Assembly: GCA_015478775.1 (NCBI GenBank)
Contig: JADMKP010000012.1
Coordinates: 1-64,000 of the forward strand
Length of the DNA stretch: 64,000 nucleotides
Direction of reading: 5' to 3'
From: Fermentimonas sp.
Lineage (GTDB): Bacteria > Bacteroidota > Bacteroidia > Bacteroidales > Dysgonomonadaceae
Numbering within the stretch: the first letter of the stretch is position 1; the number at the start of each line of letters is the position of its first letter. A model generated the notes under the pieces. The model saw only the letters and a list, made by a program, of their open reading frames with translations. It did no database searches and was not told where the DNA came from. Shown here in pieces: positions 1,473 to 18,786 of this stretch. A program made the position numbers and the translations under genes.

Positions 1473-2738
1473 TTACACTCTTTTTGAAGTTACTTCTTTT
1501 TCATACTCTTGAATTTCCTTAATATAGGCATCACCAATAACTACTCCCTGATGCTGACAGAAATAGTTGTAAACAGAATTCCACGGCATCGCTTTTAGTT
1601 CTTCGAGATATGCCATGCGTTCAAATCTTTTATCCTTTTTTTCAAACTCTCTAAGTTGATTAGTTGGTTCCAGTAGTGCTTGTAGCATGGCTTTTTGAGT
1701 AGCACGTATTCCCACTACATAAGCGCCAACTCTATTAATTGAAGCATCAAAATAATCGAGTCCAATATTCACACGATCCATTTGCCCCGAGCGAACAATT
1801 TCCTGTGCAATGGCTTGAAGCTCATCAGTTAAAATTACAACATGGTCGCTATCCCATCGTTCGGGTCTGCTAACATGCAAATTTAGTTCTGGCACAAATA
1901 GCAGCATAGTTGAAATCTTGTCGGAAATGGTTTCGGTGGGGTGAAAGTGTCCGGCATCTAGTGTAAGCATCATGTTGTTTTTTACAGTATATCCCATATA
2001 AAACTCATGAGAACCCGTTACATAGCTTTCACTACCTATCCCAAACAGTTTACACTCAAGGCAATCTTTTAAATATTCGGTACTAATTTTCTCCTCTAAT
2101 ACTTCATCAAGAGATTCAATTAATAATTTCCTATGCTCATAACGTGATACGGTTTTATCCTTCTCTCCATCTGGAATCCAAATATTATGAATACATGGAT
2201 CACCTTGTTGTTTTCCAATTTCTGCAGCAATTCTTCTACACCTGCGTAAGTGCTCTTTCCAAAAATTTCTAATAGCAGGGTCGAAATCGGATAATGTATA
2301 CCCACTCTTACTCTTGTCATGCGAGAAAAAAGTAGAATTGAAATCAATTTTAATACCATTTTCTAAAGCCCAATCTATCCAACTTTGAAAATGCTTTGGC
2401 TCAATTTGATCTCTGTCAACGAATTCTCCATCAAAATCTCCGTATATGGCATGCAGGCTAATTCTATGTTTACCAGGTATTAGTGATAACACTTTTGCTA
2501 TATCACTTCTTAGTTCGTTGATGGTGCGAGCCTTGCCTGCAAAATTTCCAGTTGTTTGAATGCCACCTGTAAGCTCTCCATCTGGATTTTCAAAACCTAA
2601 AACATCGTCAGCTTGCCAGCAATGTATAGAAATTGAAATATTTTTTAATTTATCCACAGCATTTTCTACATCCACTCCAAGTGTAGCATACTGTTCCTTT
2701 GCATATTTATATGCATCCAATACTTGTTCTACTTTCAT
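1473..2738 (-). CDS. rhaA: L-rhamnose isomerase
   Basis: This 421-residue cytoplasmic enzyme interconverts L-rhamnose and L-rhamnulose. Recognisable family blocks are SISIHCWQADDV near the N-terminus, GGIQTTGNFAGKARTI, HAIYGDFDGEF, GIGSESYVTGSHEFYMGY, the metal-binding stretch LTLDAGHFHPTE, and HVSRPERWDSDHVV. The length equals that of E. coli RhaA (about 419), and the start MKVEQVLDAYKYAKEQY is the usual one. It lies between rhaB (73 nt upstream) and rhaT (3 nt downstream) and has all the signature metal ligands, so I see no sign of decay. Confidence 0.96.
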   Translation of the reverse strand: MKVEQVLDAYKYAKEQYATLGVDVENAVDKLKNISISIHCWQADDVLGFENPDGELTGGIQTTGNFAGKARTINELRSDIAKVLSLIPGKHRISLHAIYGDFDGEFVDRDQIEPKHFQSWIDWALENGIKIDFNSTFFSHDKSKSGYTLSDFDPAIRNFWKEHLRRCRRIAAEIGKQQGDPCIHNIWIPDGEKDKTVSRYEHRKLLIESLDEVLEEKISTEYLKDCLECKLFGIGSESYVTGSHEFYMGYTVKNNMMLTLDAGHFHPTETISDKISTMLLFVPELNLHVSRPERWDSDHVVILTDELQAIAQEIVRSGQMDRVNIGLDYFDASINRVGAYVVGIRATQKAMLQALLEPTNQLREFEKKDKRFERMAYLEELKAMPWNSVYNYFCQHQGVVIGDAYIKEIQEYEKEVTSKRV

Positions 2739-2811: not shown

Positions 2812-4302
2812 TTATATTATGCGAGTCTTATCCACATCAAGATATTTTTGATAATGTGTGTTCCATTTTTCACTTTCTTGAGGTGTAAATTTCTCAAGAT
2901 TAGTTGAATTGCGCACAATATCACGTATTTGTATTTTATCCTTAACCATCCCCGCAGCCTTAACCTGCATCAAAATATTCCCCATTGCCGTCGCCTCTGA
3001 AGGGCCCGAAACAACCTCTATGCCAATTGCATTTGCAGTAAACTGATTAAGCATATTATTTTTTGATCCACCACCAATAATATGCAAGGTCTGAACAGGA
3101 AAATCGGCTAGCTTTTGAAGATTTTCAAGCACTTGCCTGTACCTTAATGCAAGACTTTCATAAATACACCTTGCAATCTCACCAAGGGTAATTGGCACTA
3201 TTTGACCTGTTTCTTTACAGTAATTTTTAATTGCTTCTATCATCGATTCTGGGTTTGCAAAGCACTGAGCATCGGGATTTATAAATGATGCAAATGGGGG
3301 TGATTTTTCTGCTTCTTCCACAATCTCAGTATATGATAGAGGAAATTCGGCATCCCACTCTTTTTTGCAACGTTCTATAAGCCACATTCCACAAATATTT
3401 TTTAATAGCCTTATAGATCCGTCAGCACCTCCCTCGTTAGTAAAATTAAGATTGTAAGTTTCTTCGTTAATAACCGGATTTTTTGTTTCGATACCCATAA
3501 GCGACCATGTGCCCGAGCTCAGATAAGCAAAATTTTCATTACCCGCCGGAGTTGCAAGAACAGCAGAGGCAGTGTCGTGTCCCGCAACTGCAATTACTGC
3601 AACTTCATCCATGTCGGTTTGTTTTTTTACAGAGTCTGATAGCTCACCAACTTTTGTTCCAGGAAAAACAATCGGAGCAAAATTGTCATTAGTGAGTTTA
3701 ATTTTTGCAAGTATATCTTCATCAAACTCTTTTAAGTATGGATTAATCATTTGTGAAGTAGATGCTATGGTGTACTCAGTAACCATTTTGCCCGTAAGCA
3801 TATAAGACAACGCATCGGGCATAAATAATATTTTGTCAATTACAGGATATATAGATGATTTATCATTGAGTTGTGTATCCAGTTGAAATAGAGAGTTGAA
3901 GTTCATAATCTGTATGCCGGTTTTATGATACAACTCTTTCTTCGAAATCTTAGCATAAAATCTATCAGGAGCACTAAAAGTAGATGTGTCGCGATAACTA
4001 GATGGCATACGAAGCGGCTTTCCATCACTTCCAAAACATACAAAATCTACACCCCATGTGTCTATTCCCAATGATGCAATATTATATCCTTGCTGTTTAG
4101 ATTCTTTTATAGATTTAATAATTTGGTCATATAAATAATAAAGATCCCAGTAGATATGATTGTTGAATTCAATCATTGGGTTTTGAAATCGTGTTATCTC
4201 ATTAAGCTCCACTCGGTCATCTTTAATAATTCCCACTATAGATCTTCCGCTGCTTGCCCCTATGTCTATGGCTAAATATTGTTTTAATTGAATTTTATTC
4301 AT
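2812..4302 (-). CDS. rhaB: Rhamnulokinase (FGGY family)
   Basis: This 496-residue sugar kinase phosphorylates L-rhamnulose at C1. The FGGY-kinase fold is shown by the N-terminal phosphate loop AIDIGASSGRSIVG, the sugar-site segment SLGIDTWGVDFV, the hinge block YLSSGTWSLMG and the adenosine motif HIIGGGSKNNMLNQ. It is the first gene of the rha operon; its promoter should lie in 4303-4833. No separate L-fuculokinase occurs in the window although fucI is present, so this enzyme is the only visible candidate for fuculose phosphorylation. That second role is inference only. Confidence 0.94.
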   Translation of the reverse strand: MNKIQLKQYLAIDIGASSGRSIVGIIKDDRVELNEITRFQNPMIEFNNHIYWDLYYLYDQIIKSIKESKQQGYNIASLGIDTWGVDFVCFGSDGKPLRMPSSYRDTSTFSAPDRFYAKISKKELYHKTGIQIMNFNSLFQLDTQLNDKSSIYPVIDKILFMPDALSYMLTGKMVTEYTIASTSQMINPYLKEFDEDILAKIKLTNDNFAPIVFPGTKVGELSDSVKKQTDMDEVAVIAVAGHDTASAVLATPAGNENFAYLSSGTWSLMGIETKNPVINEETYNLNFTNEGGADGSIRLLKNICGMWLIERCKKEWDAEFPLSYTEIVEEAEKSPPFASFINPDAQCFANPESMIEAIKNYCKETGQIVPITLGEIARCIYESLALRYRQVLENLQKLADFPVQTLHIIGGGSKNNMLNQFTANAIGIEVVSGPSEATAMGNILMQVKAAGMVKDKIQIRDIVRNSTNLEKFTPQESEKWNTHYQKYLDVDKTRII

Positions 4303-4833: not shown

Positions 4834-6183
4834 ATGGCAATAGTAATTATTATGCCCAAACAAGGGCAATCTGTTGAAAGTTGTATCATCACAGAAATTA
4901 AAAAGAAGAAAGGCGAGACGGTAAAAAAGAGTGATATCCTTTTCACTTACGAAACCGATAAAGCTACTTTTGAGGAGGAAGCTCCTGTTGATGGTGTAGT
5001 TTTGGAGTGCTTTTATGTTGAAGGAGACGAAGTGCCGGTATTGGAGAATATGATGGTTATTGGAGCTCCGGGAGAAGATTACTCTGATTTGATTGGGGCG
5101 CATGAAACAGAAGAAACGAAATCTGATGAAAGCTTAAAAAAAGATTCAGAAGAAAAGATTGAATACACAGATGATCTTTCTAAAGTAGATACAAAAATCA
5201 GCAAAAAAACAGACCAGCCTAAATTCATTTCTCCCAGAGCAAAAAATTTAGCCGAAAAAGAATCTGTTGAAATATCCAATATAGATGGAAGTGGACCAAA
5301 AGGCAGAATAATAGAAAAAGATGTAAAGCATTTTTTGAATGATCGTCCCAGAATGACACCTCTTGCCAAAAAAATTGCTTCAGAAGCTGGTTTATCACCA
5401 CAAGAGTATGGTACTGGTTTAGCCGGTGCAGCAAGAGCAACTGATCTTGCAGATACAGAAAATAAAATATATGATGTTGAGTACGAAGATCGAAAAATAT
5501 CGAATATGCGTAAGATTATTGCAAAATCTATGCATTCGTCACTTCAAAACTCAGCGCAACTTACACATCATTTAAGCGCAGATGCAAGACGCCTGTTGGA
5601 GTTAAGAAAACAGGCTAAGATATCATTTGAGGAAAAAGCCATTGAAGCAAACATTACTCTAAACGATATGGTTTGTTTTGCTGTTATTAAAGCATTGAAG
5701 AAATTCCCTGAGGTAAATACTCACTTTTTAGGAGATTCGAAAAGATATTTTAATAAAGTGCATCTTGGATTAGCGGTAGATACAGAAAGAGGGTTGATGG
5801 TGCCAGTAATCAGAGATGCAGAAGACCTCTCGGTAACGGGACTTTCAAATAGACTAAAAACAGTTGCAGATTCGTGCCGAAAAGGTAATGTAAATCCCGA
5901 TATCCTTGCTCCTGAGGCCGGCACATTTACTGTTTCTAACTTAGGCAATTATGGGGTGGAAATGTTTACTCCGGTTATTAATTTGCCTCAGTCGGCAATT
6001 CTAGGCGTAAATACAATTCTTCCCAGGCCCAAAGATTTAGGTGATGGGGTATATGCTTTTGTGCCTCATATAGGTTTAAGCCTTACTTATGACCATCGCT
6101 CGTTGGATGGGGGTGAAGCCACTCGTTTTTTAAAACAAATAGCAATTGAAATAGAAAACTTACAATTAGATATAACATTATGA
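4834..6183 (+). CDS. 2-oxoacid dehydrogenase E2 (dihydrolipoamide acyltransferase) with two E3-binding-like segments
   Basis: This 449-residue protein is the core acyltransferase of a 2-oxoacid dehydrogenase complex. Residues 1-85 form a lipoyl domain with lipoyl-lysine K43 in ETDKATFE. Residues 131-168 are a canonical peripheral-subunit-binding domain (FISPRAKNLAEK to GPKGRIIEKDV). Residues 172-205 look like a second, degenerate copy (RMTPLAKKIASEAGL to GTGLAGAARATDL). The catalytic domain runs from about 225 to the end and has the active-site H421 and D425 in DHRSLDGG. The stop overlaps the E3 start by 4 nt (ATGA). The complex could use pyruvate, branched-chain oxoacids or another oxoacid; the sequence does not decide. 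Confidence 0.9.
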   Translation: MAIVIIMPKQGQSVESCIITEIKKKKGETVKKSDILFTYETDKATFEEEAPVDGVVLECFYVEGDEVPVLENMMVIGAPGEDYSDLIGAHETEETKSDESLKKDSEEKIEYTDDLSKVDTKISKKTDQPKFISPRAKNLAEKESVEISNIDGSGPKGRIIEKDVKHFLNDRPRMTPLAKKIASEAGLSPQEYGTGLAGAARATDLADTENKIYDVEYEDRKISNMRKIIAKSMHSSLQNSAQLTHHLSADARRLLELRKQAKISFEEKAIEANITLNDMVCFAVIKALKKFPEVNTHFLGDSKRYFNKVHLGLAVDTERGLMVPVIRDAEDLSVTGLSNRLKTVADSCRKGNVNPDILAPEAGTFTVSNLGNYGVEMFTPVINLPQSAILGVNTILPRPKDLGDGVYAFVPHIGLSLTYDHRSLDGGEATRFLKQIAIEIENLQLDITL

Positions 6184-7538
6184 TAGACTTATTAATTTTA
6201 GGTGGAGGTCCTGCCGGATATGTAGCAGCCGAAAGAGCAGGGCAAGCAGGATTAAAAGTAGTTCTTTTTGAAAAGAGTGCAATGGGTGGTGTTTGCCTCA
6301 ATGAGGGGTGTATTCCTACAAAAACATTACTATATAGTGCAAAAATGTATGAAAATGCACTTAACGCAGAAAAATATGGAGTCTTTGGCGACAATATAAG
6401 GTTCGATTATGGTAAAATGGTTTCACGCAAAAAAAAGATTGTTCGCAAACTTGTATTAGGCGTTGAGAGCAAGATGAAATCAAATAAAGTTGAGGTAGTA
6501 AAGGGCGAGGCATTTATAAATAGTCGCTCTTCCGAAGGCATAGAATTAAGTTGTAATGGAGAGAAGTATGTTGGTCGCAATTTGCTTATTTGCACCGGCT
6601 CAGAAGCATCTGTTCCACCAATTCCGGGTTTAAGTGAAGCTGGAGATATAATCCTTACAAACAGAGAGATTTTAGAGATGACAGAACGTCCCGAGTCGCT
6701 TGTGGTAATAGGTGGAGGTGTTATAGGGATGGAATTTGCCAGCTTTTATAATAGTCTCGGATCAAAAGTTACAGTCGTTGAGATGCTTCCGGAAATTGTT
6801 GCAGGAATGGACCTTGAAGTTTCAACAATGCTTCGTCAGATTTATGCAAAGAAAGGGATTGATTTTAACTTGAATTCAAAAGTTGTGCAAGTAGATGGCA
6901 ACAAGGTTGTATTTGAAAAAGAAGGTCAAATGCATACCGTAGAAGGAGACAAGATATTATTGAGTGTGGGTCGCCGACCTGTTACCAGTGGTTTTGGTCT
7001 TGAAAATATTGGTGTTGAGTTGTTCCGCAATGGAATTAAAGTGGATGAGAAAATGCGTACAAATGTTCCGGGTGTTTTTGCCGCAGGAGATGTAACAGGT
7101 TTCTCACTTCTTGCACATACTGCCAGTCGTGAGGGAGAGGTGGTGGTGAATAATCTTACAGGAAGATCTGATATCATGAGATATAATGCCATTCCGGGAG
7201 TTGTTTATACCAATCCTGAAGTTGCCGGAGTGGGCGAAACTGAAGAGTCGGCCAAAGAAAAAAATATAGCATATAAGGTTGCTAAATTGCCAATGGCATA
7301 TGCAGGACGTTTTGTTGCAGAGAACGAAGGTGGTTCGGGAGTATGCAAAGTATTGGTAGGAGAAAAATATGGTGAAGTAATTGGTGTTCATATGTTGGGC
7401 AACCCAAGCAGTGAAATAATATTTGGAGCTGCTATGGCTATTGAACAGGAAATGACACTTAAAGAAATGCAGGAGGTGGTATTTCCACACCCAACAGTTA
7501 GCGAAATAATAAAAGAGGTTGTATTTAGTTTTAAATAA
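6180..7538 (+). CDS. lpdA: Dihydrolipoyl dehydrogenase (E3)
   Basis: This 452-residue FAD flavoprotein re-oxidises the lipoyl arm of the E2 protein and passes electrons to NAD+. The N-terminal FAD loop LGGGPAGYVAAERAG is followed by the redox-active disulfide motif GGVCLNEGCIPTK. The NAD loop VVIGGGVIGMEFASF lies in the middle, and the FAD-ribityl motif GVFAAGDVTG follows it. The C-terminal interface domain ends with the catalytic histidine in HPTVSE. Length and motifs are complete. The start overlaps the E2 stop (ATGA) and E1 follows 9 nt later, so the three subunits form one translational unit. Confidence 0.95.
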   Translation: MIDLLILGGGPAGYVAAERAGQAGLKVVLFEKSAMGGVCLNEGCIPTKTLLYSAKMYENALNAEKYGVFGDNIRFDYGKMVSRKKKIVRKLVLGVESKMKSNKVEVVKGEAFINSRSSEGIELSCNGEKYVGRNLLICTGSEASVPPIPGLSEAGDIILTNREILEMTERPESLVVIGGGVIGMEFASFYNSLGSKVTVVEMLPEIVAGMDLEVSTMLRQIYAKKGIDFNLNSKVVQVDGNKVVFEKEGQMHTVEGDKILLSVGRRPVTSGFGLENIGVELFRNGIKVDEKMRTNVPGVFAAGDVTGFSLLAHTASREGEVVVNNLTGRSDIMRYNAIPGVVYTNPEVAGVGETEESAKEKNIAYKVAKLPMAYAGRFVAENEGGSGVCKVLVGEKYGEVIGVHMLGNPSSEIIFGAAMAIEQEMTLKEMQEVVFPHPTVSEIIKEVVFSFK

Positions 7539-7547
7539 ATATTAGAA

Positions 7548-10007
7548 ATGCCAAAAGTACAATTTATCGATCCCAGTGAAGTCAGAAAGCCAGGATTCGT
7601 AGAATTTAAGCCTATAGCTGTAAATCAATATCAGAAAAGTGTAAAAGACGAGAAAGAGAACTTTACAGATGATGAGTTTAAGCTTATTTACCACGATATG
7701 GTTCTTATACGTGAATTTGAGACCATGCTTAATCTTATTAAAACAAAAGGTGAGTATAATGGCACTTCATATAATCATCCCGGACCGGCTCACCTATCTA
7801 TAGGGCAGGAGTCGGCGGCAGTTGGTATGGCATGGACACTTTCTGTTGACGACTTCATCTTTGGTAGTCACAGATCGCATGGCGAGATATTGGCGAAAGG
7901 AATGTCGGCCATTCATAAACTGGATGATAATGAGTTAACTAGTATAATGGAAAACTTCTTTGATGGCGCCATTTATGAAATAGTTAAGAAAGACTTTGAT
8001 GGAACAGTAAAAGAGCTTGCCAGGAGGTTCCTTGTTTATGGTACACTTGCAGAAATATTTGCCCGTAAAACCGGTTTTAACAGAGGTCTGGGAGGTTCGA
8101 TGCATGCATTTTTTACTCCATTTGGAGTATATCCAAACAATGCAATTGTTGGTGGTTCGGGAGATATAGCTGTTGGTGCAGCACTTTATAAAAAGGTTAA
8201 CAGAAAGCCAGGACTTGTTGTAGCAAATATTGGTGACGCTTCTTTGGCGTGCGGGCCAGTTTGGGAAGGTATTACATTTGCTGCAATGGATCAGTTTAGA
8301 GAACTATGGGAAGGTGATATGCAAGGAGGGTTGCCTGTTATAATCAATATAATGAACAACCAGTATGGTATGGGTGGCCAGACCAGTGGCGAAACTATGG
8401 GCTATGATATTGCTGCACGTATTGGAGCAGGTGTAAATCCTGATCATATGCATGCTGAGCGTGTTGATGGCTACAACCCCCTTGCAGTAATTGATGCATA
8501 TAAACGTAAACGAAAGATTATTGATGAAAAAAGAGGTCCTGTTTTACTAGATGTACTTACGTATAGATATAGTGGACACTCACCCTCAGATGCTTCTTCT
8601 TATCGTACTAAAGATGAAGTTGAAGCGTGGGAAGCTCAAGATTGTATCAATTCTTATGGCAATGAACTTATTAATGCTGATGTTGCTCAACAAGTTGATT
8701 TGGATTCTATATGGTCTGATGTAAATGAACTTATTAATGAGATGTTTCTTAAAGCAATTGATACTAAAACTTCACCATTGATGGATAGTGCTGAAATTAT
8801 TGGTGAAATGATGTTTTCTAATGGCTCTGTAGACAGATTCTCTGATGCTGAACCTGAAGTGTTGATGCCATTGGACGAAAATCCTAGGGTTAAAAGAATA
8901 TCAGTAAAAGAGCGTTTTGCCTTTGACAAGGAAGGTAAGCCTTATAGTAAAATGAAGCAGTTTCAGCTAAGGGATGGAATTTTTGAAGCTATAATAGATC
9001 GGTTTTATAAAGATGCTTCACTTGTAGCTTATGGCGAGGAATGTCGTGATTGGGGTGGAGCTTTTGCAGTGTATAATGGATTAACAGAATCGTTACCTTA
9101 TAACAGGCTGTTTAATTCGCCAATTTCTGAAGCCGCGATTGTTGGTACTGCAATTGGGTATGCAATGTGTGGAGGTAGAGTTATTCCAGAAATTATGTAC
9201 TGCGACTTTATAGGTCGTGCTGGTGATGAGATTTTTAATCAGCTACCTAAATGGCAGGCAATGAGTGGTAATGTCCTTAAAATGCCAGTTGTTGTGAGGG
9301 TTTCTGTAGGTTCTAAATACGGAGCGCAACACTCGCAAGACTTGACATCTCTAATTGCCCATATTCCGGGTATAAAAGTCTGTTTCCCGGTTACACCTTA
9401 TGACGCTAAAGGTTTGATGAACGCATCATTACAGGGTACCGACCCAGTTATATTTTTTGAAAGTCAGCGTATCTATGATATTGGAGAACAGTTTCACAAA
9501 GGCGGTGTGCCCGAAGAATATTATGAGGTAGAATTGGGAGAACCTGATGTAAAGAGAGAGGGTAAAGATATTACATTCCTTACAGTTGGATATACACTCT
9601 ATCAAGCTCTTAAAGCTGCAGAAGAGCTTGAAGAGAAATACGGAATTAGTGCAGAGGTTATAGATGCACGCTCACTTGTTCCATTTAATTATGAAAAAGT
9701 AATTGAGTCAGTAAAGAAGACAGGAAAAATTATAGTAGCCGGTGATGCCACAACCAGAGGGTCGTTTCTTAATGATATGGCCACAAATATTAGTCAGCTT
9801 ACTTTCGATTATCTCGATGCACCTGTATCAGTACTGGGTTCGCGCAACTGGATTGTACCTGCACATGAACTCGAGGAACAGTTCTTTCCGCAACCAAGCT
9901 GGTTTTTGGACATGATTCATGAGCGTATTCAACCTCTGAAGGGCTATATTCCAGGACAAAACTTTACGGATGGAGAAATTGTGAAAAGGGCTAAAAATGG
10001 TATTTAG
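7548..10007 (+). CDS. 2-oxoacid dehydrogenase E1, fused alpha and beta subunits
   Basis: This 819-residue thiamine-diphosphate enzyme decarboxylates a 2-oxoacid and loads the lipoyl group. The N-terminal half is E1 alpha, with GSHRSHGEILAKG, GGSMHAFF and the TPP-binding span from GDASLACGP to NIMNNQYGMG. The C-terminal half (from about 465) is E1 beta (VAYGEECRDWGGAFAVYNGL, then SPISEAAIVGTAIGYA). About 45 residues are inserted between HGEILAKG and GGSMHAF compared with ordinary E1 alpha. Fused E1 chains occur in Bacteroidota and are usually annotated as 2-oxoisovalerate-type, but the substrate cannot be read from the sequence. The aldolase and dehydrogenase genes that follow suggest a role in sugar breakdown. 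Confidence 0.9.
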   Translation: MPKVQFIDPSEVRKPGFVEFKPIAVNQYQKSVKDEKENFTDDEFKLIYHDMVLIREFETMLNLIKTKGEYNGTSYNHPGPAHLSIGQESAAVGMAWTLSVDDFIFGSHRSHGEILAKGMSAIHKLDDNELTSIMENFFDGAIYEIVKKDFDGTVKELARRFLVYGTLAEIFARKTGFNRGLGGSMHAFFTPFGVYPNNAIVGGSGDIAVGAALYKKVNRKPGLVVANIGDASLACGPVWEGITFAAMDQFRELWEGDMQGGLPVIINIMNNQYGMGGQTSGETMGYDIAARIGAGVNPDHMHAERVDGYNPLAVIDAYKRKRKIIDEKRGPVLLDVLTYRYSGHSPSDASSYRTKDEVEAWEAQDCINSYGNELINADVAQQVDLDSIWSDVNELINEMFLKAIDTKTSPLMDSAEIIGEMMFSNGSVDRFSDAEPEVLMPLDENPRVKRISVKERFAFDKEGKPYSKMKQFQLRDGIFEAIIDRFYKDASLVAYGEECRDWGGAFAVYNGLTESLPYNRLFNSPISEAAIVGTAIGYAMCGGRVIPEIMYCDFIGRAGDEIFNQLPKWQAMSGNVLKMPVVVRVSVGSKYGAQHSQDLTSLIAHIPGIKVCFPVTPYDAKGLMNASLQGTDPVIFFESQRIYDIGEQFHKGGVPEEYYEVELGEPDVKREGKDITFLTVGYTLYQALKAAEELEEKYGISAEVIDARSLVPFNYEKVIESVKKTGKIIVAGDATTRGSFLNDMATNISQLTFDYLDAPVSVLGSRNWIVPAHELEEQFFPQPSWFLDMIHERIQPLKGYIPGQNFTDGEIVKRAKNGI

Positions 10008-10036
10008 CGTTTTAACTCTCTTTTATTTATAATATT

Positions 10037-11188
10037 ATGTTGAACGTAAATTGCCATTTACATACTCCTTACTCTTTTAGTGCATTTGAAGATATTGATG
10101 ATGCACTAAACAGGGCAGTTAAGGAAGGTGTGAAAGTGGTTGGTATTAATGATTTCTACACCAACAAAGGGTTTAAAGAGTGGAAAGTTGGATGCGATAA
10201 AAGAAAGCTCATCCCACTTTTCGGTATTGAATTTATTAGTTTAAATCAAGATGACCAAATTGCGGGGTTACGGGTAAACGACCCTGCTAATCCTGGTCGC
10301 ACATACATAAGCGGGAAAGGATTTGCATATCCTTTCAATTTACCCGAGCCATTTGCTTCTCAGCTTTCAGCAGTTGAAGAGGAGTCGAATAAACAAGTGG
10401 CAGCAATGTGTGTAAAGTTTAATGAATTCTTAAAAAGAATTGATGCTGGTTTTACTCTGGATCTTGCATGGATAAAAAAAGAACTGACACATGGTTCACT
10501 TCGTGAGCGACATCTGGCAAGAGCTGTAAGAATGAAATTGTTTGAGCATTGTAAAGACGATTTAGTAAAAACAGACTTACTGCTTAAAGAGCTATTTGGT
10601 GGAAAGAGTATAAAGTCTGAACTGACTGATATTGCTAGTCTGGAAAATGAAATCAGAGCAAATCTCCTTAAAATTGGAGGTGAAGCTTATGTGCCAGAGC
10701 ATCCTGATGCATTTTTGCCCTTGCAATCTGTTTGTGATATAATAATTGCAGCGGGTGGAATACCAACATATCCATTTTTAGCTGATAATGAAAAAGGGGA
10801 GTATACCGATTTTGAGAACAATCTTGAGCGTGTGGCAAAACAGCTTACTGAACGAGGCTTTCATTCGGTTGAATTTATAACTACTCGCAACGATGTTAAT
10901 TTACTAGAGAAGTATGCGGGTTATCTCCATGAGAAAGGTTTTGTAGTTACATTTGGTAGCGAGCATAACACTCCACAGATGGAGCCAATTGTGCTTTTTG
11001 CCAGACATAATAAGCCACTTACTGAGCGGTTGAAGCAGATTAACTTTGAAGGTGCATGCGTTATTGCAGCTCATCAACATTTAGTTTCACAAGGTTTAGA
11101 GGGTTATATCGACAGTAGTGGATATGCTGACAGAACTAAACGCAAAGACTTTATAGAACTGGGTGAGTCGCTAATCAAAAGTGTATGA
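10037..11188 (+). CDS. PHP-domain metal-dependent hydrolase/phosphoesterase of unknown substrate
   Basis: This 383-residue cytoplasmic protein begins with the PHP motif NCHLHTPYSFSAFEDI and continues with VVGINDFYT and LIPLFGIEFISL. Later metal-site blocks are EAYVPEHPDAFLPL and VTFGSEHNTPQME, the usual set of His/Asp/Glu ligands. PHP domains commonly cleave phosphoesters. A long central insertion (about residues 90-200) separates the motif groups. The stop overlaps the start of the aldolase/SDR fusion (ATGA), so co-expression is likely. A phosphatase acting on a sugar-phosphate intermediate of this operon is plausible, but I do not recognise a characterised homologue. Confidence 0.75.
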   Translation: MLNVNCHLHTPYSFSAFEDIDDALNRAVKEGVKVVGINDFYTNKGFKEWKVGCDKRKLIPLFGIEFISLNQDDQIAGLRVNDPANPGRTYISGKGFAYPFNLPEPFASQLSAVEEESNKQVAAMCVKFNEFLKRIDAGFTLDLAWIKKELTHGSLRERHLARAVRMKLFEHCKDDLVKTDLLLKELFGGKSIKSELTDIASLENEIRANLLKIGGEAYVPEHPDAFLPLQSVCDIIIAAGGIPTYPFLADNEKGEYTDFENNLERVAKQLTERGFHSVEFITTRNDVNLLEKYAGYLHEKGFVVTFGSEHNTPQMEPIVLFARHNKPLTERLKQINFEGACVIAAHQHLVSQGLEGYIDSSGYADRTKRKDFIELGESLIKSV

Positions 11189-13140
11189 AAGAGATAGATG
11201 ATATAATTAAGATTTCGAAATTCTACGGAAGTGATAATAGATTTGTTATTGCTGGGGGTGGAAATACATCTTATAAAAGTATAGATAGACTGTGGGTTAA
11301 AGCTAGTGGTGCTTCCCTTGCCACAATCACTGAGGAGGGTTTCGCAATACTTGATCGAACTAAGCTAAACCTTATTACCGAAAAGGTTTATAGTACTAAT
11401 GCTGATGAGCGTGAAGAACAAGTGAAAAGAGATCTTGAAGAGGCTACTTTAACAAAAGGGAAGCGTCCGTCGGTTGAAACTTCAATGCATAATGCTATTA
11501 ATTATGCTTTTGTTGTTCATTTGCACCCCACCTTAGTAAACGGTTTAATGTGTTCTCAGAATGCACAAAATGAGTTGATTAAGCTTTTTGGCGATAAGCA
11601 TGTTTTTGTGGAGTATACAGATCCGGGATACATACTTTTTAAAAAGGTAAATGATAAGATAGAGGAGCACAGAAAAAGATTTGACAAAGAACCTAAGGTT
11701 ATATGGCTGCAGAACCACGGAGTTTTTGTAGCTGCTAATACTATAGAGGAAATTCAGTTAATATATAATGATATCATAGATAAGCTTGAAGGAAGACTTA
11801 TAGAACCTCTTGAAGTTAAGTCATTGGAGGTAAATGTCAGTGTTACTAAAATACTTCCTGCCCTTAGGATGTTATTATCTAACAAAGAGCTAAAAACCCT
11901 AAGAGTTAGGAACAATGGCTTGATTAAATATTATAGCGAGCAGCCCGAAAATCAAAAAGATATAGTAAAGCCTTTTACCCCTGATGCAATTGTCTATTGC
12001 AAGTCGAATTATATATTTCTTAATAGCGACAATGATCTTTTGAATGAAGCAGAACAAAAGATTTCTGATTTTACAGAAAAATATGATTATCTGCCCAAGG
12101 TATTACTTATAAAAGGGATAGGTTTGGTGGCAGTGGGTGACAATGCCAACCAATGCGATATAATATTAGATGTTTTTGAAGATGCAATGAGAATTGCATT
12201 TTTGTCAAAAGCTTTTGGTGGACCACATCCTATGACGGATGAGCAAATAAGATTTATTGACACCTGGGAGGTTGAGAACTACAGAAGAAGTGTTGCGGCA
12301 GGCTCGTCTGCTGGTCGCGCCGAGAATAAAACTATTATTATAACAGGTGCTGCACAGGGTTTTGGTGAAGGTATAGGAGAGTGTTTGATAAAGGAGGGCG
12401 CCAATATTGTAATTGCCGATCTTAATGAAATAAAAGGAAATCAAACAGCAGTGTCTTTTAATAAAATATCGAAAAGCAACCAGTCGGTTTTTGTGAAAAC
12501 TGATGTTTCAGATGTCAGCAATTTAGAAAATCTAATTTATAAAACTGTATGTGAATTTGGTGGTGTAGACTGTTTTATAAGTAATGCAGGTGTATTGAGA
12601 GCTGGGGGACTTGAAGATATGACTCCAGAGAATTTCGATTTGGTGACCAAAATAAATTATAGTGCTTATTTTTATTGCACTAAGGTGGTGAGCAAAGTTA
12701 TGAAATTGCAAACAAAATATGGTTCGGACAACTATTATGCTGACATTATCCAGATAAATTCTAAATCTGGTCTTGAAGGTAGTAGAGCAAATTTTGCGTA
12801 TGCAGGTGGTAAGTTTGGAGGAATTGGACTTACTCAGTCGTTTGCTTTGGAGCTTGCGCCAAATAGAATTAAGGTAAACTCTGTGTGTCCAGGTAACTTC
12901 TATGAGGGGCCATTATGGAGTGATTCTGAAAATGGACTTTTTGTACAGTACTTGAAAGCCGGAAAAGTGCCGGGCGCTAAGTCTATAGAGGATGTGAGAG
13001 AGTTTTATCTTTCTAAAGTGCCAATGCGCAAAGGTTGCACTCCATTGGATGTTACAAAAGGTGTTTTGTATCTTATGGAACAAAATGGTGAAACTGGGCA
13101 AGCCTTGCCGATAACTGGCGGTCAAGTGATGTTGAGCTAG
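11185..13140 (+). CDS. Bifunctional class II aldolase / short-chain dehydrogenase (RhaEW-like)
   Basis: The N-terminal part (about residues 1-365) of this 651-residue fusion is a class II aldolase/adducin domain, with GGGNTSYKS, the zinc motif VVHLHPTLVNGL and WLQNHGVF. The C-terminal part (about 385-651) is an SDR with the nucleotide loop TGAAQGFGEGIG, an active-site serine in INSKSG and a YxxxK pair in YAGGKFG. Fusions of this design (RhaEW, Bacillus YuxG type) split L-rhamnulose-1-phosphate into dihydroxyacetone phosphate and L-lactaldehyde and oxidise the lactaldehyde. The known forms are somewhat longer (nearly 700 residues). It overlaps the PHP gene by 4 nt. It would supply the rhamnose aldolase missing from the rha operon; action on fuculose-1-phosphate is also possible. 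Confidence 0.85.
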   Translation: MKEIDDIIKISKFYGSDNRFVIAGGGNTSYKSIDRLWVKASGASLATITEEGFAILDRTKLNLITEKVYSTNADEREEQVKRDLEEATLTKGKRPSVETSMHNAINYAFVVHLHPTLVNGLMCSQNAQNELIKLFGDKHVFVEYTDPGYILFKKVNDKIEEHRKRFDKEPKVIWLQNHGVFVAANTIEEIQLIYNDIIDKLEGRLIEPLEVKSLEVNVSVTKILPALRMLLSNKELKTLRVRNNGLIKYYSEQPENQKDIVKPFTPDAIVYCKSNYIFLNSDNDLLNEAEQKISDFTEKYDYLPKVLLIKGIGLVAVGDNANQCDIILDVFEDAMRIAFLSKAFGGPHPMTDEQIRFIDTWEVENYRRSVAAGSSAGRAENKTIIITGAAQGFGEGIGECLIKEGANIVIADLNEIKGNQTAVSFNKISKSNQSVFVKTDVSDVSNLENLIYKTVCEFGGVDCFISNAGVLRAGGLEDMTPENFDLVTKINYSAYFYCTKVVSKVMKLQTKYGSDNYYADIIQINSKSGLEGSRANFAYAGGKFGGIGLTQSFALELAPNRIKVNSVCPGNFYEGPLWSDSENGLFVQYLKAGKVPGAKSIEDVREFYLSKVPMRKGCTPLDVTKGVLYLMEQNGETGQALPITGGQVMLS

Positions 13141-13164
13141 GGCGGTTAAATTAAAAATGATAAA

Positions 13165-14436
13165 ATGAAAACAAAAGCAGTAAGATTATATGGTAAAAAA
13201 GATCTCCGATTAGAGGAATTTGAATTACCACAAATAAAAGATAATGAGATTTTAGCTAAGGTTGTTTCAGACTCACTTTGTATGTCTTCTTACAAAGCAG
13301 CATCTCAGGGGCCTGAGCATAAACGTATACCCGATGATGTATCGGAAAATCCAATTTTGATGGGGCATGAATTTGCCGGTGAGTTATTGGAGGTAGGTTC
13401 TAAATGGGCTCATAAATTTAATGCGGGCGATAAGTTCTCAATTCAGCCTGCTTTATACTATGAAGATGGTCCGGTTGGTATTTTAAGTGCTCCGGGTTAT
13501 AGCTATAAATACATTGGCGGCAATGCTACCTACATAGTTATTCCGAATGAGGTAATGGAACAAGATTGTCTTCTGAAATATGAAGGTGAAGGGTATTACC
13601 CCGCATCTCTTGCGGAGCCTCTATCATGTGTAATTGGTGCGATGCATGCAAATTACCACACAACTCCTGGAAGTTATGAGCATAAAATGGAGATTGTAGA
13701 TGGTGGGAAAATGGCAATTTTGGCTGGTGTGGGACCAATGGGGCTTGCTGCTATTAACTATGTGCTTAATAGAGAAGATCTAAAGCCTTCACTTCTGGTT
13801 GTTACTGATGTAGATCAGGATAGACTTAATAGAGCTGCTTCTATATATACAGTCGATTTTGCTGCTTCACGAGGAATAGATTTATATTATATAAATACAG
13901 GTAAAGTAGACAACCCGGTTGAATTGCTCAGAGATAAGACAAATGGTTTGGGTTATGATGATGTGTTTGTTTTTGCACCGGTTAAATCTGTAGTGGAGCA
14001 AGGTGATGCGATACTGGGGTTTGATGGATGTCTTAACTTCTTTGCTGGACCAAATGATACTAATTTTAGTGCTAATCTCAATTTCTACAATGTTCATTAT
14101 GCATATACACATATTGTGGGTACTAGTGGTGGTAATAATGATGATATGGTTGAAGCATTAGATATTATGAGTAAAGGTCTTGACCCCGCAGGGTTAGTTA
14201 CGCATATAGGTGGGTTGGATGCAGTTGTAGACGCAACTATTAATCTCCCCAATATCCCAGGAGGTAAGAAGCTAATATACACTCATATTGAAATGCCACT
14301 GACTCCAATTGCTGATTTTGCAAAACTTGGTGAGGAAGATAAGTTTTATAAAGAACTTGCTGAAATATGTTCTAAGCATAAAGGTTTATGGAGTGTTGAG
14401 GCAGAAGCGTTTTTACTTGAGAATTATGGTGTTTGA
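13165..14436 (+). CDS. Zinc-type medium-chain alcohol dehydrogenase, SorE (L-sorbose-1-phosphate reductase)-like
   Basis: This 423-residue MDR-superfamily protein has the GHE block (LMGHEFAGELLEVG), an unusual N-terminal segment in place of the typical GICG (SDSLCMSSYKAA), and a Rossmann region GVGPMGLAAINYV. A C-terminal extension reaches the end at LLENYGV. The architecture and length fit SorE-like sugar-phosphate reductases/polyol dehydrogenases rather than ordinary ADH (about 350 residues). It lies 24 nt after the aldolase/SDR fusion and 18 nt before the tandem aldolase. Roles could be reduction of a ketose-phosphate or oxidoreduction of lactaldehyde or glyceraldehyde; the sequence cannot decide. 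Confidence 0.75.
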   Translation: MKTKAVRLYGKKDLRLEEFELPQIKDNEILAKVVSDSLCMSSYKAASQGPEHKRIPDDVSENPILMGHEFAGELLEVGSKWAHKFNAGDKFSIQPALYYEDGPVGILSAPGYSYKYIGGNATYIVIPNEVMEQDCLLKYEGEGYYPASLAEPLSCVIGAMHANYHTTPGSYEHKMEIVDGGKMAILAGVGPMGLAAINYVLNREDLKPSLLVVTDVDQDRLNRAASIYTVDFAASRGIDLYYINTGKVDNPVELLRDKTNGLGYDDVFVFAPVKSVVEQGDAILGFDGCLNFFAGPNDTNFSANLNFYNVHYAYTHIVGTSGGNNDDMVEALDIMSKGLDPAGLVTHIGGLDAVVDATINLPNIPGGKKLIYTHIEMPLTPIADFAKLGEEDKFYKELAEICSKHKGLWSVEAEAFLLENYGV

Positions 14437-14454
14437 TTTTTATAAATTATATAT

Positions 14455-15753
14455 ATGAAACAATTAGATGTGAATTTGATGCATCCGGTAGAACAAATTA
14501 AAGTTATTATCGGAAGAATATATAAAAGTGGTATGACTACTACTTCAGGAGGAAATGTATCAATTAGAGATAAAAATGGAGACATTTGGATTACACCTTC
14601 GGGAGTTGATAAGGGATTACTTACTGAGAACGATATAATGCAGATTAAAAAAGATGGCACTGTAATTGGATTGCATAAACCTTCTTCTGAACTTCCATTT
14701 CATAAAGCAATTTATGAGTCCCGACCAGAGCTTAGTGCCATTATTCATGCTCACCCGCCTGCTCTTGTTGCTTTTAGTATTGCTGGTATTGTACCCGACA
14801 CAAAAATTGTTCCCCAAGCATACAATATTTGTGGCGATATTGGTTTTGCTCCTTATGGTACTCCAGGTAGTGAAGATTTGGGAGAGAAGATTGCTAATGA
14901 GTTTCTCGACAAACGATACAAGGCTATTATTATGGAAAATCACGGCGTTGTATTAGGAGGTGCAAATATGATGGATGCATATCAACGTTTTGAAACTCTT
15001 GAGTTTTGCTGTCGTACAATTATTAATGCAAAAAGGCTTGGAAGCGTAAATTATTTATCAGACGAGCAAGTTTCTCAATACGTTAATCATTTACCATCTA
15101 ATATTTCTCACTTCATGGATATTGATCATCCATCTGAGGAAAGGGCTATAAGAACTGAAATGGTGAATATTATACGTAGAGCATGTGATCAGGGATTAAT
15201 GATTTCTACATATGGAACGGTATCTGCTAGATGGAAAGAAAATGATTTTCTGATTACTCCTAGCAATATTGCCAGATGGGATATTGTACCAGGTGATTTA
15301 GTACAAATAAAAAACGGTATGGCAGAGGCAGGAAAAACTCCTAGTCGGTCCGTTGCACTTCATCAGCGCATTTATCAGTTAAACCCCCAGATTAATTCAA
15401 TTGTATGTACTCAACCCGTTAATCTAATGGCACATGCAGTTAGTGGCAGTAAGTTTGATGTTAGAACTATACCTGAGAGCTGGATATTCTTACAAGACGT
15501 GCCTTCAATACCGTTTGGTTTGATTTATAATGATGTTGATAGTGTGGCAAAGATGTTTCAAAAGAATAGGGTTATACTAGTAGAGAATGACAGTGTATTC
15601 GTTACCGGTGACAAGCTCTTAAATACATTTGATTATTTGGAGGTTGCAGAGTTCTCGGCCAATTCGTTGGTTATGGCTGCTACAATTGGAACATTGCAAC
15701 CAATTGGAGATGAAGAGATAGAGGATTTAAGAATTGCATTTAATGTAAAATAA
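14455..15753 (+). CDS. Tandem class II aldolase (FucA-like) with an intact first and degenerate second domain
   Basis: This 432-residue protein is two class II aldolase/adducin domains in a row. Domain 1 (about 8-215) keeps the FucA catalytic set: E79 (SSELP), H98 and H100 (HAHPP) and H163 (MENHGV), plus SGGNVS. Domain 2 (about 222-430) aligns along its length, but these positions read S, C, Q (VCTQP) and D (VENDSV), so all four zinc/catalytic residues are gone. L-fuculose-1-phosphate aldolase normally has one domain of about 215 residues. Placement just before the probable fucR and fucI supports a FucA role for domain 1. Domain 2 may be structural, since the family is tetrameric. Confidence 0.82.
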   Translation: MKQLDVNLMHPVEQIKVIIGRIYKSGMTTTSGGNVSIRDKNGDIWITPSGVDKGLLTENDIMQIKKDGTVIGLHKPSSELPFHKAIYESRPELSAIIHAHPPALVAFSIAGIVPDTKIVPQAYNICGDIGFAPYGTPGSEDLGEKIANEFLDKRYKAIIMENHGVVLGGANMMDAYQRFETLEFCCRTIINAKRLGSVNYLSDEQVSQYVNHLPSNISHFMDIDHPSEERAIRTEMVNIIRRACDQGLMISTYGTVSARWKENDFLITPSNIARWDIVPGDLVQIKNGMAEAGKTPSRSVALHQRIYQLNPQINSIVCTQPVNLMAHAVSGSKFDVRTIPESWIFLQDVPSIPFGLIYNDVDSVAKMFQKNRVILVENDSVFVTGDKLLNTFDYLEVAEFSANSLVMAATIGTLQPIGDEEIEDLRIAFNVK

Positions 15754-15883: not shown

Positions 15884-16879
15884 ATGGATAACAAATTGGA
15901 ATTAAGATTTAGTGGAAAACATACTAAGGTAAAACAGCTTGCTGACTTTATCCAAGATAATATTATTGCTCAAGAAATGAAGGTAGGAGATAAATTGCCT
16001 TCTATTAACTTCTTGAGTCAAAGATTTTCAGTTTCCAGAGACACAGTGTTTAAGTCGCTTTCCGACTTACGAGATCGTGGAGTTATTGATGCTATTCATG
16101 GTAAAAACTACTTTGTTTCTTCACCAACCAGAAATATATTATTGTTATTAGATGAATATTCGCCCTTTAAAGAAGTGTTACATAATATCTTGGTGTCTGA
16201 GCTGCCAAAATATTATAAAATAGACCTATGGTTTCACCAATATAATCAGCATCTATTCAATAACATTATAAATGAATCAATAGGTCAGTATAACAAATAT
16301 CTTGTTATGAACTATGATAATGAGAAATTCTCTGATTCGTTAACCAAGATAGACAAGAAAAAGCTGCTACTACTTGATTTTGGGAAATTCGACAAAGATG
16401 GTTATTCTTATGTATGCCAAGATTTTGATGATGGTTTATATAATGCATTAGCAACTATTAAGAAATATCTTATGAAATATGAAAAGCTGATTTTCGTTCT
16501 TAATAAGAATCATAAACATCCACAGAGTAGTAAAACTGCATTCTCTAAATTCTGTCTGGATAATGATTTGTATTTCAATATATACAACGAGATTTTAGAT
16601 GATGCACCAATAAAAGAAAATTGTTTCTATCTTGTAGTTAAACAAGAAGATGTTGTTAAGATTGTAAAGAAGGGCAAACTAAATAATCTTAAACCTGGCA
16701 AGAACTACGGCTTGCTTGCATATAATGAAAACCCGTTTTTTGAAGTAATAGAGAATGGTATATCTAGTATAGGTATAGATTGGCAACAGATGGGGAAGGT
16801 TGCATCAGAGTTTATTTTAAAGAGCAAGCCTGTTAAACACTATTTGCCCACGGTGATAATTAAAAGAGACTCGTTTTAA
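15884..16879 (+). CDS. GntR-family transcriptional regulator with sugar-binding C-terminal domain (probable FucR)
   Basis: This 331-residue protein has a GntR winged helix in residues 15-80 (KLPSINFLSQRFSVSRDTVF, then LRDRGVIDAIHGKNYFV). The rest resembles the periplasmic-binding-protein/LacI-like ligand domain, ending with HYLPTVIIKRDSF. In Bacteroides a GntR-type FucR represses the fuc operon and is relieved by L-fucose; this gene sits directly before fucI and fucU, which supports the same role. A run of three related 5-mers (ACAGT, ACAGA, ACAGT at 15851-15865) lies just upstream of its start and might be an autoregulatory site. Family certain, ligand inferred. Confidence 0.85.
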   Translation: MDNKLELRFSGKHTKVKQLADFIQDNIIAQEMKVGDKLPSINFLSQRFSVSRDTVFKSLSDLRDRGVIDAIHGKNYFVSSPTRNILLLLDEYSPFKEVLHNILVSELPKYYKIDLWFHQYNQHLFNNIINESIGQYNKYLVMNYDNEKFSDSLTKIDKKKLLLLDFGKFDKDGYSYVCQDFDDGLYNALATIKKYLMKYEKLIFVLNKNHKHPQSSKTAFSKFCLDNDLYFNIYNEILDDAPIKENCFYLVVKQEDVVKIVKKGKLNNLKPGKNYGLLAYNENPFFEVIENGISSIGIDWQQMGKVASEFILKSKPVKHYLPTVIIKRDSF

Positions 16880-16920: not shown

Positions 16921-16949
16921 ATAGATAAACACATATAATAATCTAAGTG

Positions 16950-18719
16950 ATGAGAAAATATCCAAAAATTGGTATTCGTCCAACTATAGATGGACGACAG
17001 GGTGGCGTTAGAGAAAGCCTTGAAGAAAAAACTATGAACCTAGCGAAATCTGTAGCAAATTTAATTGAAACGAACCTCAAAAATGGAGATGGAAGTGCGG
17101 TTGAATGCATAATAGCAGATACTACAATTGGTAGAGTAGGTGAGAGCGCAGCCTGTGCCGAGAAGTTTGAAAGAGAGGGTGTAGGGTCAACAATTACTGT
17201 AACTTCAAGCTGGAATTATGGCTCGGAAACTATGGATATGAATCCTCATTATCCAAAAGCTATATGGGGGTTTAATGGTACTGAACGTCCGGGTGCCGTA
17301 TTTCTTGCAGCAGTTCTTGCAGCTCATGCACAAAAAGGTTTGCCTGCTTTTGGAATATATGGTCGTGATGTTCAGGATTTATCAGACAACTCTATTCCAG
17401 AAGATGTTGCCGAGAAATTATTAAGGTTTGCTCGTGCAGCACAAGCAGTTGCAACTATGAGAGGTAGGTCTTATCTGGCTATCGGTGGTACTTGTATGGG
17501 AATTGCAGGTTCAATGGTAAACCCAGATTTTTTTCAAAAATATCTGGGAATGCGCAATGAGTCTGTAGATTCTACTGAGATAATTCGCAGAATTGAAGAA
17601 GGTATATTTGATCCGGAAGAGTTTGAGAAAGCTATGGCTTGGACAGAAATGTACTGTAAGGTAAACGAGGGTGAAGATATAAATAGAGCTGAGAAACAAA
17701 AAGATCGCGAAGCAAAAGATAAAGATTGGGAGTTTGTGGTGAAAATGACCCTAATAATTAAAGACTTGATGCTAGGAAACCCGAAGTTAGAGGAGTTGGG
17801 TTTCAAAGAAGAAGCGATAGGACATAATGCAATTGTTGGTGGTTTTCAAGGTCAACGTCAATGGACGGACTTTTTACCAAATGGAGATTTTAGCGAGACA
17901 ATACTGACTAGTTCATTCGATTGGAATGGGATAAGAGAGGCTTTCAGTTTTGCTACTGAAAATGATTCGCTGAATGGTGTTTCTATGTTATTTGGACATT
18001 TACTTACTAATACTGCACAAATGTTCTCTGATGTAAGAACTTACTGGAGTCCTGAAGCAGTAAAGCGTGTGACCGGCAAGGAGTTAGAGGGTAAAGCTGC
18101 AAACGGTATTATTCATCTTATAAATTCTGGTGCAACAACTCTTGATGCTACTGGTAAACAAAGATTAAACGGTGAGCCTGCTATGAAAGAGCACTGGAAT
18201 ATAAACCAGGAAGAAGTTGAAGCTTGCCTTGCAGCAACTACCTGGTCGCCTGCAAATAGAGATTATTTTAGAGGTGGAGGCTACTCATCAACATTTCTTT
18301 CTGAAGGTGGAATGCCAGTAACTATGAGTAGGTTGAATCTGGTGGATGGATTGGGACCAGTACTGCAAATTGCAGAAGGGTGGACAGTTGAACTGGATGA
18401 GGAGGTTCATGATATTATTAATAAACGTACTGACAGAACTTGGCCAACAACATGGTTTGCACCACGTTTAACCGGTAATGGTCCTTTTAAAGATGTTTAC
18501 TCTGTAATGAACAACTGGGGAGCAAATCATGGTGCTATAAGCTATGGTCATATTGGACAAGATTTGATTACTCTTGCCTCAATGCTTCGCATTCCTGTAT
18601 GTATGCACAATGTTGAGGAGTATGAAATTTTCCGTCCTTCTACATGGAACGCTTTCGGAATGGATAAAGAAGGCGCTGATTACAGGTCATGCAAAAACTT
18701 TGGACCAATTTATAAATAA
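16950..18719 (+). CDS. fucI: L-fucose isomerase
   Basis: This 589-residue enzyme (ATG at 16950; a GTG lies one codon earlier) converts L-fucose to L-fuculose and is known in the family also to accept D-arabinose and L-galactose. It matches E. coli FucI almost end to end: [19 protein letters not shown] near the start, [14 protein letters not shown], and [12 protein letters not shown]. The Mn-site residues lie in ATENDSLNG (Glu), FSDVRTYW (Asp) and PVCMHNVEE (His). It ends [14 protein letters not shown]. It follows the GntR gene by 70 nt and precedes fucU. Nothing suggests damage. Confidence 0.97.
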
Positions 18720-18770: not shown

Positions 18771-18786
18771 TCTAATAATAAACATT

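Follow-up and report, generated by a model that had tools for sequence, protein, structure and literature searches.

Plant, algal and host glycans are rich in rhamnose and fucose, and the textbook routes for both sugars send half of the carbon to lactaldehyde and then to propanediol or lactate. In the L-sorbose route, SorE and sorbitol-6-phosphate dehydrogenase together carry out a known shift of a ketone from C2 to C5. We examined a 64,000-nucleotide stretch of DNA from Fermentimonas sp. (assembly GCA_015478775.1, contig JADMKP010000012.1, positions 1 to 64,000; hereafter the window), in which a SorE-type dehydrogenase is encoded together with a 2-oxoacid dehydrogenase-type complex among rhamnose and fucose genes. 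The putative operon comprises genes for E2, E3 and a fused E1, followed by a PHP-family protein, a class II aldolase fused to a short-chain dehydrogenase/reductase (SDR), the SorE-type enzyme and a tandem class II aldolase. It may provide an aldolase-independent entry for 6-deoxyhexoses in which the complex would give acetyl-CoA and a tetrose phosphate, a reading to which we give not quite an even chance.

In the proposed pathway, RhaA and RhaB, or FucI and FucK, would produce a 6-deoxyketose 1-phosphate. The SorE-type enzyme would reduce the C2 ketone to give a 6-deoxyhexitol phosphate, and an SDR of the sorbitol-6-phosphate dehydrogenase (SrlD) type would oxidise the hydroxyl beside the methyl group to form a 1-deoxyketose 6-phosphate (CH3-CO-CHOH-...-CH2OP), a methyl ketol like acetoin. 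The net effect of the two steps would be a C2-to-C5 shift of the ketone via the hexitol phosphate. The thiamine-dependent E1 would then cut off the methyl-ketone end, as acetoin dehydrogenase does with acetoin; E2 would take up the acetyl group on its lipoyl arm and transfer it to CoA, E3 would yield NADH, and the remaining tetrose 4-phosphate would enter transaldolase and transketolase reactions. The aldolase domains of the window may serve a parallel branch to dihydroxyacetone phosphate (DHAP) and lactaldehyde, or may interconvert rhamnulose and fuculose phosphates. Here we infer the substrates, step directions and products, as well as any role of the PHP protein or of a HAD phosphatase.

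The preliminary description of the window had reported a complete 2-oxoacid dehydrogenase complex, and family searches identified all three components: E1, E3, and an E2 that has both lipoyl and acyltransferase domains. The reading frames, order and spacing it gave were also borne out: the seven genes are intact and all on the plus strand, with gaps of -4, 9, 29, -4, 24 and 18 nt. The same genome holds three further E1_dh genes, two of split type (C12:186745 and C7:93020) and one 925-aa frame (C1:99752); the first two were included in the E1 trees and the third was left out. In two trees, the window E1 formed one clade (100/100) with fused E1s from rhizobial plasmids, and both of the genome's own split E1s fell outside it. 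The window E1 was separated at 100/100 from the C12 E1, a branched-chain (BCKDH) E1 and a Bacteroidota fused E1. Between the HRxHG and GGSMH motifs, 7/7 members of the clade shown and 0/12 others carried an insert of 42 residues. This insert and a conserved lysine in the E1 stretch GSKYGAQHSQ are candidates for phosphate binding. The clade sits on a long branch; acetoin-type E1s fell on its side of the tree, opposite the pyruvate dehydrogenase and BCKDH E1s, as a separate clade. E1 and E2 scored below every curated model cut-off listed in the NCBIfam search, and the E1 scores, together with the 100/100 separation from the BCKDH rows, argue against placing E1 among the pyruvate and branched-chain dehydrogenases.

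The preliminary description had called one of the two dehydrogenases that would shift the ketone SorE-like, and this enzyme gave full-length matches to annotated L-sorbose 1-phosphate reductases, at 49.6-50.6% identity over 99%, the value for the annotated sorE of Klebsiella being 50.6%. The best named match of the SDR half of the fusion was SrlD. Against the SrlD model NF009050 it scored 206.5 bits (cut-off 307), which indicates kinship but not an equivalog. In the SDR tree, which serves as a guide rather than proof given its long branches, the SDR half grouped with SrlD at 99/97 and the RhaW-type rows stood apart at 100/100. Two of the three RhaW-type rows came from annotated rhamnose operons and the third was an unannotated 24% match. 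An earlier tree without SrlD had left the kinship unsettled and was superseded by this one. Grouping with SrlD and not with RhaW led us to reject a RhaEW orthologue for the SDR half, and the whole fusion reached 228.8 bits against the RhaEW model TIGR02632, whose cut-off is 567.75.

Co-occurrence was assessed in 50 genomes with E1, spanning 19 families, and 30 genomes without it. Four E1-positive genomes with fragmentary E1 were left out, and twelve negatives (G759-G770) were counted as such because they were absent from the printed positives. SorE (E<=1e-60) was present in 47/50 E1-positive and 0/30 E1-negative genomes; the misses were G752, G975 and G1032, which are 90, 76 and 72% complete. 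The two genes co-occurred even when they lay on different contigs, for example in G839, G936 and G951. The aldolase/SDR query likewise matched 47 of the 50 (all but G975, G1019 and G1032), compared with a single E1-negative genome, G750, where the match was to the aldolase half. RhaA was found in 42/50 versus 7/30 genomes, FucI in 33/50 versus 7/30, and either of the two in 45/50 versus 9/30; because the genomes are related, Fisher values for these comparisons overstate significance. We consider it highly probable that the complex is a dedicated one, working with the SorE-type enzyme and the SrlD-type SDR on deoxy-sugar phosphates.

Gene order was not unique to the window genome and recurred in many others. 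A scan of named genomes covered the best 80 of 271 relatives, with many loci cut by contig ends. Among these 80 loci, E1 was followed by the PHP gene in 72 and the order E1-PHP-aldolase/SDR was kept in 65, and every title that named a group named Bacteroidota or a group within Bacteroidales. Cultured carriers of the set include Proteiniphilum acetatigenes and Seramator thermalis. With 191 weaker relatives outside the best 80, the set may reach further. The E1 clade was found in 54/393 genomes of an order-level Bacteroidales sample (E<=1e-120). In the phylum and class samples, a full-length PHP match (1/296; five short PHP-domain matches were discarded) and the E1 clade (1/395 at E<=1e-150) were found in the window's own genome only; these even samples include few Bacteroidales, as comparison with the order-level sample indicates. 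In 32 of the order-level surroundings, E1 was detected in 31 by an open reading frame script and in L206 by tblastn. The set there consisted of E2, E1, a PHP protein and/or a HAD phosphatase, and an SDR with or without an aldolase domain, with E3 in some loci and SorE in most; a divergent GntR regulator was present in 24/32.

Within the family, the PHP marker was found in 55/101 genomes. Twenty loci on long contigs were chosen from these 55, of which 12 carried rhaA, 13 a rhaB-like kinase and none fucI. A pure fucose operon was ruled out for the family on this count. Embedding in a fucose operon describes the window correctly, but across its family rhamnose genes are the common neighbours. RhaD was nearly exclusive with the set, occurring in 2/55 PHP-positive (G296 and G299) versus 26/46 PHP-negative family genomes, much of which reflects genus membership. 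In the window genome, neither RhaD (E<=1e-20) nor FucO (E<=1e-60) was found; FucO scored over its cut-off in 6/101 family genomes, the window genome not among them.

In three genomes from two families (G965, G984 and G894), the set adjoins fucose genes and no aldolase domain is present in that operon. G965, which is 99% complete with 1% contamination, carries fucI, fucK, fucU and fucP, all over cut-offs, followed by GntR-E2-E3-E1-PHP-SDR-HAD-SorE-FSA/TalC. Its SDR has no aldolase domain and best matched the sorbitol-6-phosphate dehydrogenase model (220.3 bits, cut-off 307), the next model reaching 155 bits. No class II aldolase (PF00596) was found in G965 at E<=1e-8, while the other 16 of the 17 genomes searched, including the window's, had at least one. 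A classical FucA/RhaD route calls for a class II aldolase in every genome that has the pathway, and G965 departs from this. G984 and G894 showed the same fucose layout and an SDR without aldolase domain, with class II aldolase genes elsewhere in both. Given fucI and fucK without an aldolase in the operon, fuculose phosphate would there be handled most simply by the set itself.

The catalytic aldolase domain is gone from the set's SDR in ten genomes, and Aldolase_II gave no match at E<=0.01 when six of these proteins were searched against Pfam. In six genomes (G856, G828, G1101, G951, G940 and G745), a free aldolase half shares a contig with rhaA, lying less than 200 nt from it in four of them, 1.7 kb away in G940 and 6.7 kb away in G745. 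Its occurrence near rhaA and its loss from the SDR suggest that the aldolase half is likely a rhamnulose-1-phosphate aldolase and dispensable for the set. In the tandem aldolase, the zinc motifs are kept in the first half and, as read by eye, gone from the second (HAHP to CTQP, ENHG to ENDS); its best models were of the OxoTetrPhDc and FucA types, below cut-off. A 4-epimerisation of rhamnulose to fuculose phosphate by the two aldolases is a side idea only, since G856, G745, G940 and G1081 have RhaA without the tandem aldolase.

In three Proteiniphilum-type genomes (L110 = L054, L121 = L051, and L038), a transaldolase gene follows the tandem aldolase at a distance of 56-57 nt, and in a fourth (L127 = L055) such a gene lies 80 nt downstream of SorE; the L110 protein scored 501 bits against TIGR00874, and G1101 carried TalC-transketolase-TalC. 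These neighbours are suggestive of a tetrose phosphate product. A phosphatase was closest, at scores below cut-off, to models of phosphoglycolate phosphatase. According to a passage of PMC7041631, mammalian phosphoglycolate phosphatase removes 4-phosphoerythronate, which arises from erythrose-4-phosphate as a side product, and an enzyme of this kind would again be suggestive of a tetrose phosphate. A lipoate-ligase-like gene, with a family check on one, was seen in 29 of the best 80 loci and fits a lipoylated E2. The PHP protein is probably a metal-dependent phosphatase: residues H7, H9, D39, E65, H310 and H346 were invariant in 24 sequences and would be metal ligands. A sequence search for solved relatives gave three weak matches, the best with E 0.006, to unrelated molecules.

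Several results weigh against the aldolase-independent pathway. The main difficulty is stereochemical: C3 of rhamnulose- or fuculose-1-phosphate corresponds to C4 of the deoxyketose, so that the product of simple cleavage would be D-threose- or L-erythrose-4-phosphate. To arrive at D-erythrose-4-phosphate, the pathway would require an epimerisation. Both the fusion and the tandem aldolase of the window retain zinc motifs, which, together with the free aldolase half on the rhaA contig of six genomes, would still permit classical cleavage there. The top NCBIfam model for the whole fusion was a bifunctional aldolase/SDR (232 bits, cut-off 1014). One annotated pdhA also fell on the window E1's side of the tree; with this and the acetoin E1s on the same side, the substrate cannot be read from the tree. 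The absence of PF00596 concerns one draft genome, G965, in which two candidates scored worse than 1e-8. Transaldolase and transketolase partners were seen in a minority of loci, and the PHP protein has no assigned job within the pathway. Neither RhaA nor FucI was found at the thresholds used in 5/50 E1-positive genomes, three of which (G866, G898 and G1019) are >90% complete. Genes like mannitol-1-phosphate 5-dehydrogenase and HAD phosphatases adjoin E1 in L196, L210 and L212, with a PfkB kinase in L212, and L199 and L202 adjoin genes read as glycerol genes. Such neighbours suggest that the substrate range may be wider, extending to other hexitol or ketose phosphates.

The alternative that fared best is classical cleavage of rhamnulose-1-phosphate to DHAP and L-lactaldehyde, with the SDR oxidising lactaldehyde to lactate in the manner of RhaW, a lactate dehydrogenase encoded elsewhere supplying pyruvate and the complex acting as a dedicated pyruvate dehydrogenase. 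The fusion has the domain order of the assayed RhaEW enzymes of Bacillus and Chloroflexus, as given in passages of PMC3870299, and matches PRK08324 models over its full length, though far under cut-off. The six genomes with a free aldolase half close to rhaA fit this alternative, as does E2, which was nearest to pyruvate-type E2 models, under cut-off. However, the SDR half resembles SrlD and not RhaW, none of the operon's genes was recognised as a lactate dehydrogenase, and the genome has other E1s. Classical cleavage also leaves the 47/50 coupling to SorE unexplained and does not account for the three fucose-type operons without an aldolase domain, including that of G965 with no PF00596 match at the threshold above. 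We judge it improbable, and the preliminary suggestion that the complex oxidises pyruvate formed via lactaldehyde and lactate is not supported.

The preliminary description had also proposed a dedicated route in which a 2-oxoacid derived from a deoxy-sugar is oxidised to an acyl-CoA. Dedication was upheld, as the set is conserved in order and distinct from the housekeeping E1s; the 2-oxoacid substrate was not. The fold and domain set are those of 2-oxoacid dehydrogenases, but no sugar-acid-forming gene was recognised in the block, and neither there nor among the conserved neighbours was an aldonate dehydratase, lactonase or oxoacid aldolase recognised, the neighbours being judged mostly by similarity and reading rather than by family search. 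The entry enzymes are instead an isomerase and a kinase, and the constant partners are the SorE-type and SrlD-type dehydrogenases. We regard a 2-oxoacid substrate as distinctly unlikely.

An equally doubtful reading is that a TalC/FSA-type or class II aldolase cuts the 1-deoxyketose phosphate into hydroxyacetone and glyceraldehyde phosphate and that the complex takes the three-carbon piece. FSA enzymes accept hydroxyacetone, and an FSA/TalC-type gene belongs to the set in G965, G984, G894, G828 and G1101. That gene was seen in only 7/132 loci, four of them 29-30% matches in which the TalAB-type gene of two genomes was fetched twice each, whereas E1, SorE and the SDR are almost always present. 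If hydroxyacetone were cleaved as an acyloin, formaldehyde would result. Finally, family membership alone favours a housekeeping pyruvate or branched-chain complex placed in the operon by chance, which the preliminary description had named as an alternative in its branched-chain form and which the other E1s of the genome, the separate E1 clade at 100/100, the unique insert and the conserved linkage reduce to a very slim prospect.

Upstream of the set, rhaB, rhaA and rhaT lie on the minus strand, so the block appears as one half of a divergent rhamnose locus to which fucI and fucU have been added (Table 1). A promoter scan gave matches at chance level, and terminators were fewer than in shuffled sequences.

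Table 1. Features of the deoxy-sugar locus in the Fermentimonas sp. window
Feature	Position	Strand	Basis or remark
rhaT, L-rhamnose permease	444..1469	-	Named from resemblance and context; copies 73-82% identical adjoin rhaA in family loci
rhaA, L-rhamnose isomerase	1473..2738	-	Named by resemblance
rhaB, rhamnulokinase	2812..4302	-	TIGR02627, 537 bits (cut-off 528)
E2	4834..6183	+	PF00364 (biotin_lipoyl), PF02817 (E3-binding), PF00198 (2-oxoacid_dh)
E3, dihydrolipoyl dehydrogenase	6180..7538	+	TIGR01350, 491 bits (cut-off 409)
E1, fused alpha and beta, 819 aa	7548..10007	+	PF00676 (E1_dh); transketolase domains PF02779, PF02780
PHP-family hydrolase	10037..11188	+	PF02811, 33 bits
Aldolase/SDR fusion	11185..13140	+	Aldolase_II plus adh_short
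N-terminal class II aldolase half of fusion, zinc motifs retained	11185..12312	+	PF00596, alignment
C-terminal SDR half of fusion, sorbitol-6-phosphate dehydrogenase (SrlD) type	12313..13140	+	Profile matches, tree
SorE-type zinc dehydrogenase (L-sorbose 1-phosphate reductase family)	13165..14436	+	ADH_N; identity to annotated sorE
Tandem class II aldolase	14455..15753	+	PF00596 (Aldolase_II), two stretches
GntR-family regulator	15884..16879	+	PF00392; starts 130 nt after tandem aldolase
fucI, L-fucose isomerase	16947..18719	+	TIGR01089, 1122 bits, over cut-off
fucU, RbsD/FucU-family mutarotase	18754..19212	+	PF05025

A second fucI was found elsewhere in the genome (G000:C7:849864-851627). Directly after fucU, the window encodes a GH95 protein (19302-21782, by Pfam), and a similar frame, seen as a reading frame, lies at 54033-56453. 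A xylan-type polysaccharide locus occupies positions 25919-63977 on the minus strand, 3' of the fuc genes. Pfam identified GH67, GH115, GH97, GH3, GH8 with a SASA esterase, and a TonB-dependent receptor plug in this locus; xylose isomerase, xylulokinase, SusD-like, GH43 and GH31 proteins were read from sequence only.

In relatives, small unrelated genes lie between the genes of the set at positions that vary by locus. They belong to the 23S rRNA-intervening-sequence protein, PD-(D/E)XK nuclease, YhcG/DUF1016 and GmrSD families (L110:13283-13627, L122:5745-6167, L085:6951-8201 and L087:4045-6243). A second copy of the E1 clade was found away from the rhamnose locus in G344 (C1:210311) and G336 (C1:1527437), from another genus of the same family (loci L140 and L141).

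Outside Bacteroidales, the nearest E1s found were on plasmids of Rhizobium, Agrobacterium and Pleomorphomonas, at ~53% identity, in a search that covered plasmids. The plasmid E1 clusters included lipA in one case and mannitol dehydrogenase in two. The PHP protein was found on no plasmid and SorE on no rhizobial plasmid. More distant E1s were seen in Arthrobacter (L213), with a class II fructose-bisphosphate aldolase gene (fba), a lipoyl protein and an FGGY kinase, and in Sinorhizobium/Rhizobium (L214/L231), with E1a, E1b, E2, E3 and fba. The plasmid and distant E1s in sugar operons suggest that the association of such an E1 with sugar genes is a theme wider than Bacteroidales. We put forward, at rather less than an even chance, that the set represents a new 6-deoxyhexose catabolic pathway, widespread in Bacteroidales and with no need of an aldolase, whose lipoate-dependent "ketose-phosphate dehydrogenase" is common to the Rhizobium and Agrobacterium plasmid clusters.

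If the proposed pathway operates, all six carbons would reach central metabolism without lactaldehyde or propanediol, and the fermentation products predicted for set-bearing Bacteroidales would change. It would explain a genome with fucI and fucK but no class II aldolase match, and a sugar phosphate would join the substrates of acyl-CoA-forming dehydrogenase complexes.

Among the papers listed in searches of the open-access literature we recognised no account of such a pathway, although few terms were searched and this is weak evidence of absence. Passages of a comparative genomics study of rhamnose utilisation place canonical RhaD in Bacteroidales and mention RhaEW in Bacteroidetes (PMC3870299); these passages make no mention of a complex of this kind, and its main text contains none of the terms "dehydrogenase complex", "lipoamide" or "acetoin".

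Compared with classical fucose and rhamnose operons (FucA/RhaD, FucO), the locus shares FucI, FucU, RhaA, RhaB and RhaT; unlike them, it adds the complex, PHP, SorE and SDR, in a genome without RhaD or FucO matches. Similar to RhaEW, a class II aldolase-SDR fusion is encoded in a rhamnose locus, but the window fusion is ~23-25% identical to annotated ones, its SDR subfamily differs and the aldolase half is gone in ten relatives. The pairing of a SorE-type reductase with an SDR of the sorbitol-6-phosphate dehydrogenase type recalls the L-sorbose pathway. In the window, however, entry is by rhamnose or fucose, no phosphotransferase system genes were recognised, an E1-E2-E3 complex is coupled, and the SDR is of the SrlD type rather than that of the Klebsiella sorE operon. 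The rhizobial plasmid clusters hold the nearest E1 kin with the same insert, alongside sugar kinases, sugar ABC transporters and a lipoyl protein; in these clusters an alpha/beta hydrolase replaces the E2 catalytic domain, and no SorE or aldolase/SDR is annotated in the stretches shown. A parallel in proposed chemistry is acetoin dehydrogenase (AcoABCL), likewise a complex of thiamine E1, lipoyl E2 and E3, in which a methyl ketol would be split into acetyl-CoA and an aldehyde; acetoin-type E1s lie on the window E1's side of the tree. The window E1 differs in its own long-branch clade, its fused alpha and beta parts, its 42-residue insert and its partners, which are sugar-phosphate enzymes in place of butanediol genes.

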